A stretch of 64,000 nt of DNA from positions 1 through 64,000 of IMG/VR virus record IMGVR_UViG_3300046366_000047; one strand, written 5' to 3'. Below, one piece after another: positions 3,916 through 57,325 of this stretch. The DNA is from a virus. The position numbers and the translations under genes were made by a program. How positions within the stretch are numbered: the first letter of the stretch is position 1; each line of letters begins with the position of its first letter. The notes beneath the pieces are model-generated. The model saw only the letters and a list, made by a program, of their open reading frames with translations, was not told the origin of the DNA and did not search any database.

Positions 3916-3989
3916 GCGTCTGTAGCTCCAATTGGTAGAGCATCGGATTCCAAATCCGAGTGTTAGTGGTTCGAATCCACTCAGGCGTG
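3916..3989 (+). tRNA. tRNA-Trp (anticodon CCA)
   Basis: Complete 74-nt cloverleaf: acceptor GCGTCTG/CAGGCGT, D stem GCTC/GAGC, anticodon stem TCGGA/TCCGA with loop TTCCAAA (anticodon CCA), variable GTGTT, T arm AGTGG-TTCGAAT-CCACT. The CCA tail is not encoded. Phage tRNAs usually compensate for codon or tRNA-depletion differences with the host. Confidence 0.95.
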
Positions 3990-4011
3990 CTAACAATTTT
4001 AATTATATACT

Positions 4012-41242: not shown

Positions 41243-41273
41243 TTTGCAGATTAAAAAATCATTTCTAGATTTG
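41243..41273 (+). promoter_or_regulatory. Consensus Bacteroidota promoter for the leader RNA
   Basis: TTTG (41243-41246), 19-base spacer, TAGATTTG (41266-41273): an exact TTTG-N19-TANNTTTG. The expected start is about 41279-41281, at the first base of the pseudoknot arm. Confidence 0.8.
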
Positions 41274-41277
41274 CAGA

Positions 41278-41369
41278 GTGTTGGCACACAAGCATAGAAA
41301 AAATTTAAAGGTTATACTAGCCCCCTATTCTCCAATACTGCCAACACACACTCAATGGGGGGCTTTTTA
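41278..41369 (+). ncRNA. Pseudoknot-forming leader or short RNA ending in a terminator
   Basis: The predicted 5' end GTGTTGGCA (41278-41286) is fully complementary to TGCCAACAC (41339-41347), which lies in the loop of the downstream terminator stem (41319-41329 with 41354-41364). The arm order S1-S2-S1'-S2' defines an H-type pseudoknot. It may be an attenuator controlling the gene that begins 12 bases later, or a free about 90-nt RNA. Confidence 0.65.
41319..41369 (+). terminator. Intrinsic terminator just upstream of a start codon
   Basis: AGCCCCC with short extension pairs with GGGGGGCT, 24-nt loop, then TTTTTATTTTT. It lies 12 bases before the ATG at 41381. Confidence 0.78.
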
Positions 41370-41380
41370 TTTTTGTTGGT

Positions 41381-41665
41381 ATGGAACAATTTAGAGTATT
41401 ATGTGTGAATGACAGATTTTGTCCTACAGAATTTCCTTCTGGATGTTGGATTCAAAAAAATGAAGTGTATACGGTAGTAGACGCAAAGTACTTAGCCAGG
41501 CAACATATGACCATTGGCTACAAGCTTGCAGAGATTGATTTACCTGAAGATTCAGTGTATCAATACTTTCTGTCAAATCGATTTAGACCATACACTGATG
41601 AGGATGAAATGCTTGAGGCTGCATTAGAAGAATTACTAGAACAAACAGAACCTGTTGTTTTGTAA
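41381..41665 (+). CDS. Conserved phage protein with attenuated-type leader
   Basis: 94 aa: V-L-C-V-N-D-R-F-C-P, W-I-Q-K-N-E-V-Y-T-V-V near 23-33, then GYKLAEIDLP and Y-Q-Y-F-L-S-N-R-F, followed by an acidic tail. I recognise this as a common small phage/Bacteroidota protein of unknown role. Expression would be governed by read-through of the terminator directly upstream. Confidence 0.7.
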   Translation: MEQFRVLCVNDRFCPTEFPSGCWIQKNEVYTVVDAKYLARQHMTIGYKLAEIDLPEDSVYQYFLSNRFRPYTDEDEMLEAALEELLEQTEPVVL

Positions 41666-56119: not shown

Positions 56120-56512
56120 ATGAAAGACATGAAAATCTTGGATTTGTTGATGAACTATTTACCTAATGAGTATGTAGATTGTGTAGTGAATAACCTTGAC
56201 GATTTCGATGTGTTAGAGGATGAAGGCTTCTCAATCGAGGCAGAGTTAATGACGCTATTCGATTGGGTAGAATCTAGAGAAGGATATGAATTTTGGAATC
56301 AAGTATTCCATTACGTCCTTGGAGATGCCGAGCTTCCTCCTTTACCTATAGATATTAATTACAAGCCATCATTAGTCATGAATATGAAAGATGGTATGTA
56401 TATAATGAATGCAGGTAACACAGGGCTTAACATCAAGTATGAGGTTATTATGAAAGACCTACATAAGGCAGAGAATAAAGCCCAGGAACAAGTGTTGATG
56501 TGGTTAAATTAA
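56120..56512 (+). CDS. W-S-G-YW family protein, long variant
   Basis: 130 aa. FSIEAELMTLFDWVESREGYEFWNQVFHYVLG carries the family motif; the extra C-terminal half is unrecognised. Acidic overall. Stop is followed directly by the ATCACTATCAAA repeat. Confidence 0.58.
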   Translation: MKDMKILDLLMNYLPNEYVDCVVNNLDDFDVLEDEGFSIEAELMTLFDWVESREGYEFWNQVFHYVLGDAELPPLPIDINYKPSLVMNMKDGMYIMNAGNTGLNIKYEVIMKDLHKAENKAQEQVLMWLN

Positions 56513-56543: not shown

Positions 56544-56574
56544 TTTTTTTATTTAAAAATGTTTTATACATTTG
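56544..56574 (+). promoter_or_regulatory. Promoter of the short kissing-loop RNA
   Basis: TTTT at the -33 position, 19-base spacer, TACATTTG (56567-56574). Start expected at about 56580-56582, the first base of hairpin 1. Confidence 0.6.
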
Positions 56575-56580
56575 TGTCAT

Positions 56581-56675
56581 CGAATCCACACTTCGATATC
56601 TAGTTTTGCTTATATCATGGTAGATATATAATAAAAAACCCTAGTCGAGTGTGGAAAGCGATTAGGGTTTTTTTA
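56581..56675 (+). ncRNA. About 95-nt RNA with a predicted kissing loop
   Basis: Hairpin 1: CGAA/TTCG (56581-56595), loop TCCACAC. Hairpin 2: ATATCTA (56596-56602) with TAGATAT (56621-56627). Hairpin 3 is the terminator, whose loop contains GTGTGGA (56649-56655), perfectly complementary to the loop of hairpin 1. No protein frame. Promoter, compact structure and terminator together argue for a real small RNA. Confidence 0.7.
56636..56674 (+). terminator. Strong intrinsic terminator of the short RNA
   Basis: AAACCCTAGTCG (56636-56647) pairs with CGATTAGGGTTT (56659-56670) over 12 bp with one G-U, then T7. Confidence 0.88.
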
Positions 56676-56947
56676 TGCCCGAAAGGCGTTGTATATAAGC
56701 AAGATACCCCTCCAAGTCACAAGCAAGGATATCGTGTTCTTTATGTAGCACGATGTAAAAATAAATGTCTTAAATGATATCAGGGTTTTCTTAACTTGTC
56801 TCCCAGTATCAGCCTCAAATGAAACTGACAACTCAACGGAAGTAAGTTATGGTGATAGATAAGTTGATAACCTTTCTAGTTGGGGTTGGGGTTGTCAACT
56901 TGTTTATTGTCACCTTAAATCTACATCCAATCTAACAAAAGTAAATT
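56676..56947 (+). other. Gene-free, structured stretch upstream of the HNH gene
   Basis: No ORF. Hairpin ATCGTG/CACGAT near 56731-56754. A long imperfect hairpin at 56851-56914: GGTGATAG/TTGTCACC outside, AAGTTGATAACC/GGTTGTCAACTT inside, 17-nt G-rich loop. May be a second structured RNA or the HNH leader. Confidence 0.45.
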
Positions 56948-57292
56948 ATGAATAGGAAAGAACAATACCTCCAATTACTTAAAGATGATAGATGGGCATC
57001 AAAAAGAAAAGAAATTTATATACGAGATGGGTATAAGTGTAAAGTTTGCGGACTTGGAAATAGAGTATTGCAAGTTCACCACAAAGTATACTACAGCAAA
57101 ACAAATCCATGGGATATACCCGATCAATTTTTAGTAACAGTATGTGTTAAATGCCATCAGCACATACATAACACAAAAAAAATAAGAACAATATCAAACA
57201 AAAAAATAACAACTGAAGCTAAAAAGATGAAGAAGTTATTGAAATTTAAGAAATTAGCCGAGGAAACAAAAAAGAAATACAGATTAGTATAA
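56948..57292 (+). CDS. HNH endonuclease
   Basis: 114 aa. W-x-x-K-R-x-E-I-x-x-R-D-G-Y-K-C31-x-x-C34, L-Q-V-H44-H45-K-x-Y, C66-x-x-C69-H70-x-x-I-H74 is the complete HNH core. The Lys-rich C-terminal tail adds DNA binding. Stand-alone; next to structured noncoding DNA, so mobile or homing behaviour is possible. Confidence 0.88.
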   Translation: MNRKEQYLQLLKDDRWASKRKEIYIRDGYKCKVCGLGNRVLQVHHKVYYSKTNPWDIPDQFLVTVCVKCHQHIHNTKKIRTISNKKITTEAKKMKKLLKFKKLAEETKKKYRLV

Positions 57293-57325
57293 AAGCGAAG
57301 CTATAAATAACAAATAATTAACAAT

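Follow-up and report, generated by a model that had tools for sequence, protein, structure and literature searches.

Organization of the phage locus

The DNA that we analyzed (the window) comprises the first 64,000 nucleotides of a 64,984-base IMG/VR record of a dsDNA phage, in which terminase, portal and Erf/Rad52-type genes are present. A search of a genome collection returned no relatives of the portal protein, and the relatives of Erf that it returned lay on Bacteroidota MAG contigs, among others; together with the promoter type described below, these matches indicate that the phage host is probably a member of the Bacteroidota. The phage has one tRNA-Trp (CCA) gene, at 3916-3990 of the window.

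The locus considered here (56567-56674) sits in the early-gene region, where all genes are on the same strand. Upstream of it on the + strand is a gene for a conserved 130-aa protein with no assigned function (56120-56509), which is 127-130 aa long among relatives, serves as a syntenic marker, and is always what the unit with the loop-loop complementarity described below follows at loci of this type. The sequence-only reading that preceded this work had noted a promoter-like element, which we confirm: a T-rich upstream element and a -7 box of the TAnnTTTG type (56544-56574, + strand), with the box, TACATTTG, at 56567-56574 and TTTT 19 nt upstream of it. The element is kept in all relatives, the box being TATATTTG in L014 and L015; the + strand of the early region (48.5-64 kb) has four plausible TAnnTTTG boxes, of which this is one. 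Because the TAnnTTTG -7 box of flavobacteria is located at -12 to -5 (PMC9723704), +1 is predicted at 56579. This is the first base of a hairpin, and the 5' end of the RNA would therefore be paired. The - strand has its nearest TTG-N18-22-TAnnTTTG matches at 56965 and 57828, and an antisense design is not evident.

The predicted RNA is ∼95 nt long and has three hairpins, all on the + strand. The 5' hairpin, H1 (ATCGAA-TCCACAC-TTCGAT, 56579-56597), has a 6-bp stem and a 7-nt loop (56585-56591); H2 (TATATC-ATGGTA-GATATA) occupies 56611-56628; and the intrinsic terminator (56633-56674) has 15-nt arms (56633-56647/56659-56673) that are 93% complementary, an unusually large loop of 11 nt (56648-56658) and a T7 tract (56668-56674). 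H1 and the terminator had been correctly recognized from the sequence. The middle hairpin had not: the ATATCTA/TAGATAT pairing proposed for it (56596-56602/56621-56627) is not conserved, and the conserved hairpin is H2. The H1 loop, TCCACAC, is the exact reverse complement of GTGTGGA in the terminator loop (56649-56655), just as originally described, and the match extends to 8 nt when 56592/56648 are added; the H1 loop would thus form the 5' half of a putative kissing helix. The whole RNA folded better than 200 of 200 shuffled sequences (z -3.65). The TCCACAC heptamer is by itself not rare (6 seen against 4.9 expected), so the evidence lies in the arrangement and the covariation. A search with the exact DNA pattern of the RNA 5' end gave no matches, and a conserved leader peptide is absent, the AUG in H2 opening different frames (MVDI-stop in the window; different in L013 and L020).

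The terminator is directly followed not by a start codon but by another noncoding element that is strongly conserved (type A, 56675-56947, + strand). In nearly all relatives the RNA is followed by an element of ∼270-320 nt of either type A or type B (e.g. L013:7473-7765), the two types sharing only a GGYGTTGTATR-like start. Type A has a favourable fold (z -4.18), and neither type matched an Rfam family. An HNH endonuclease ORF (56948-57292) lies directly after type A; it is missing in the close relative L010 and is therefore probably a mobile insertion. Type B elements have AGTATAAAAGCGAAGCTATAAATAA at their end (e.g. L013 near 7740), and this sequence also occurs after the HNH ORF in the window (57287-57311), hinting that type A and the HNH ORF may together have replaced type B.

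The H1 and terminator loops covary in close relatives

Close relatives were found through the neighbouring proteins and the exact H2 motif, giving an alignment of 11 sequences (the window and 10 from IMG/VR). H2 was invariant in all 11. The H1 and terminator loops, in that order, were TCCACAC:GTGTGGA in the window, L009, L013 and L014; TTCGTCC:GGACGAA in L010; CTCCACT:AGTGGAG in L005; CTCCACC:GGTGGAG in L023; and CTCGTAC:GTACGAG in L011, L016 and L105. Two-sided changes were present in six of the seven kissing base pairs, and 94% of the cells in the alignment were paired. The covariation score of the whole structure was 0.275, compared to 0.163 for shuffled alignments (0/500), and was also above that of all slid versions; these values undercount the kissing pairs, as a result of where MAFFT placed gaps in L011, L016 and L105. 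The H1 stem also carries a compensatory change, G-C to U-A, in L023. A long antiterminator duplex built from extended kissing pairs, which appears in the minimum-energy fold of the window, was considered and rejected as the conserved structure: it is lost in L023 and L011, where the stems change independently.

Loops that varied without compensation had been named in advance as the observation that would count against a kissing loop, and 10 of the 11 close sequences were favourable. The exception is L015, in which CCTCACC lies opposite GTGTGGA and the cis pairing is broken. Comparison of L015 (948-1042) with L014 (54-148) revealed that five of the seven H1-loop bases differ while the RNAs are otherwise identical; a GGTGAGG partner for the L015 loop was not found elsewhere in its contig. 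The covariance-model search that had been proposed as a check identified one distant homologue, L020, with GAGAAG in the H1 loop and CTTCTC in the terminator loop. In L020 the H2 stem has changed and the loop core UCAUGGUAGA is retained.

The loops of close relatives are either identical or strongly different, while the remaining sequence differs by 6-19%. Most differing pairs of relatives have changes in 4-6 of the 7 H1-loop bases, with only 1-3 changed in L005/L023, L010/L105, L010/L011 and L023/L016, and identical loop types recur in divergent phages. Judged from these sequences, the evolution of the loops resembles the swapping of allotypes more than drift, which motivates one of the alternatives considered below. 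It was also our impression that kissing segments are richer in CAC/GTG (e.g. CCAC, GTGAG) than expected by chance.

Kissing pairs are found at a position predicted beforehand

We used an alignment of the conserved upstream protein as a query for new loci, with the prediction set beforehand that a kissing pair would be found beside the gene. Nine distinct new loci offered sufficient sequence, and new pairs were present at the predicted place in seven of them, i.e. L244, L246, L252/L253 (one type), L260, L261, L262 and L263; L264 and the weak match L265 had no kissing pair there. The first five were found by script. The pairs of L262 (ACAACCA with TGGTTGT) and L263 (AACACGACAT with ATGTCGTGTT) were read by eye and are less objective, the script having been silent because the second hairpin has no canonical T-tract. 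With these two loci lacking a proper T-tract, the class is therefore not purely terminator-based.

A wider class of kissing-terminator units

We scanned 6.3 Mb blind, using no sequence model but only a rule: a promoter box, a terminator, and, within the first ∼34 nt, a complement of at least 7 nt to the terminator loop. The scan listed 29 units, with one promoter-box mismatch allowed and close relatives included, and none in two passes over first-order Markov shuffles; a few of the 29 are likely to be chance matches, e.g. that on the Clostridium contig L182. Across many contigs the units are unrelated in sequence, yet the complementarity is kept at 7-10 nt. The terminator loop matched its own 5' region over at least 7 nt in 26 of 50 promoter-terminator units, compared to 44 of 2450 cross-comparisons, which include relatives sharing a loop type. 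Matched units were 85-111 nt long, and H2 is not conserved among them. Two genomes (G005 and G019) each have three units whose pairs all differ from one another; a third (G013) has two. The unit at 56567-56674, with its TAnnTTTG promoter, a complement of at least 7 nt between the 5' loop and the terminator loop, and a length within ∼85-111 nt, belongs to the proposed class. The rule missed a probable unit in L022 (1000-1115), where 5' ATCCTCCT and AGGAGGAT of the terminator loop are complementary and an ATG stands right after the terminator. L214, L232 (near 19617) and L238 (near 3558), from the same phages as kissing units, have short promoter-terminator units whose loops are an ordinary 6 nt and show no kissing match; these are natural negative examples.

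The first 50 kb of Cellulophaga phage phi18:3 contained no kissing unit. In a nucleotide search of cultured phages only the promoter was matched (Tenacibaculum phage PTm1, within an ordinary ORF), and in Rfam 15 no family reached the gathering threshold, tRNAs being the only matches to pass and the sub-threshold matches being at chance level. A literature search of partial coverage turned up no account of an RNA of this kind, and the class looks undescribed. The kissing loop proposed from the sequence is strongly supported, by covariation in close relatives and by the blind search. The suggestion of a new, self-contained small RNA is only partly supported, as members of the class elsewhere are usually 5' leaders.

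Most units lie shortly before a start codon

The blind scan also found a second unit in the window, on the + strand, with the promoter box TAGATTTG at 41266-41273. In this unit (41278-41368), GTGTTGGCA (41278-41286) pairs with TGCCAACAC (41339-41347), which lies in the loop of a terminator at 41320-41329/41354-41363. A relative, L228 (from G001), has the compensatory pair GTGTTGGCG:CGCCAACAC, a single A-U to G-C change. A 94-aa ORF (41381-41662, + strand) starts 17 nt past the start of the T-tract of this terminator, and its orthologues in L006 and L215, members of a small-protein family that is 45-53% identical, are also found behind kissing leaders.

A downstream ATG was located for 16 leader-type units, 15 of which have it at 11-29 nt from the start of the T-tract (48 nt in L067); a qualifying ATG was not found for L228 (where the locus ends early), L079 or L048. 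Leader-type members, including the window at 41266-41381, thus have a promoter, a structured leader and an intrinsic terminator before a gene, i.e. the layout of an attenuator leader. The genes that follow encode DnaD-like helicase loaders (L061, L026), an AntA antirepressor (L084) and NUMOD4/HNH homing endonucleases (L039 and, by sequence reading, L216 and L221).

A few units have further copies of the loop sequence before the gene. In L260 the 8 bases right before the ATG (CATCTCAC) are a copy of the H1 loop, as are the 9 right before the ATG of L263 (AACACGACA). The pre-ATG ACGACCAC of L262, read by eye, would pair with the hairpin loop via one G-U. In the second unit of the window (41278-41386), TGTTGGTA, which overlaps the start codon, forms 8 pairs with the terminator loop, one of them G-U. 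We rejected a third copy at the start codon as a general rule, since it is exact only in L260 and L263 and absent in most units.

Proposed cis attenuation and its alternatives

The conserved complementarity of the H1 and terminator loops has about as much support as sequence can give, and the RNA class is well supported; the regulatory mode is what we infer from them. We infer that a kissing helix joins the two loops, probably inside one transcript. The reading that we favour, at somewhat better than even chance, rests on position: the unit would be a ∼95-nt leader RNA that acts in cis as a transcription attenuator, its terminator gated by the kissing loop. H1 would fold first and capture the emerging terminator loop, and this capture would set how often RNA polymerase stops or reads through into the downstream element or genes. 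Where polymerase stops, a stable 95-nt RNA would result. As each unit has its own pair, the units of one genome would not cross-talk. The kissing helix can coexist with the terminator stem, unlike the mutually exclusive structures of a classical either/or attenuator. In L260, L263 and (through a wobble pair) L262, the loop of the second hairpin also matches the bases before the start codon, suggesting that in this sub-lineage the same design may gate translation, with H1 as the competitor. Against a cis attenuator are the mismatch in L015, the occurrence of third copies in few units, and the fact that no start codon follows directly at 56567-56674; because a noncoding element follows there instead, a stable terminated RNA is possible at this locus.

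The absence of that start codon would fit a self-contained trans-acting phage sRNA, whose kissing loop would close it and shield its ends, and whose H2 loop UCAUGGUAGA would bind a target RNA or protein. The invariance of H2 in 11 relatives whose kissing loops vary freely, the survival of its loop core through the stem change in L020, and the predicted burial of the 5' end in the H1 stem and of the 3' end in the terminator are consistent with such an RNA. However, H2 varies across the wider class, no target was identified, and most members elsewhere have a start codon directly after them, so that cis attenuation is the better default and we consider the sRNA rather unlikely. The allotype-like loops raise another alternative, namely that the loops of free RNA pair with nascent transcripts of their own allotype to control dosage or superinfection, and have diversified to avoid interference between related phages. 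This would account for allotypes that are discrete (identical, or mostly different at 4-6 of 7 bases, between phages differing by 6-19% elsewhere), common to divergent phages and different within one genome, and some of the downstream genes encode replication initiators or antirepressors, as in antisense-controlled plasmids. The same complementarity in cis should nevertheless beat pairing in trans, and the small number of allotypes observed may reflect recombination; we regard this explanation as improbable.

The repeats could also be operator half-sites in the DNA, read by a phage regulator, with the hairpins incidental, as each unit has its complementary 7-10-mers in about the first 30 nt and again near the end, beside a promoter. 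This is very hard to reconcile with repeats that are mostly in apical hairpin loops, with the compensatory change in the H1 stem of L023, with an H2 loop kept over a changed stem in L020, and with repeats of many different sequences, several in each genome, that a single regulator could not read; we give it hardly any weight. Leader position, own promoters and orthogonal pairs make cis regulation the best-supported use of these RNAs. A broader proposal, which we put forward as speculative and on balance doubtful, is that the two loops constitute an address code: a widespread switch with orthogonal pairs, several per genome and diversified between related phages, that would control replication, antirepressor and homing-endonuclease genes and might let each phage recognize its own transcripts in trans (RNA-based self/non-self or copy control).

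Relationship to known RNAs and significance

In plasmid antisense attenuation of the pT181 and pIP501 class, a terminator leader precedes replication-control genes and is regulated through loop-loop pairing. The phage units are alike in their intrinsic-terminator leaders, replication-control genes, loop-loop pairing and expected sequence-specific incompatibility, but both of their partner loops belong to one strand and one transcript, and no countertranscript was seen. RNAI and RNAII of ColE1 are two opposite-strand RNAs that kiss through 7-nt loops; fully complementary, covarying loops of ∼7 nt are common to both systems, whereas kissing in the phage joins H1 and the terminator of one RNA. 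The loops of phi29 pRNA join separate molecules on the packaging motor. It too is a phage RNA with covarying kissing loops, while the units described here are short promoter-terminator leaders, up to three per genome. Flavobacterium has leader-peptide and other structured 5' leaders (PMC9723704). Structured leaders of Bacteroidota resemble the phage class in combining a structured leader with a TAnnTTTG promoter, and differ from it in that the phage class has no conserved leader peptide or class-wide ligand-type core.

If the favoured reading is true, these units would represent a previously undescribed kind of leader RNA, carried by uncultured phages that are probably of Bacteroidota, in which loop-loop contact ties a terminator to the 5' end of the transcript that it belongs to. 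The class, found by a simple rule and present in up to three copies per genome before replication, antirepressor and homing-endonuclease genes, would provide a natural set of orthogonal terminator-kissing pairs, and would offer a testable model of early gene control in phages for which almost no regulation has been worked out.
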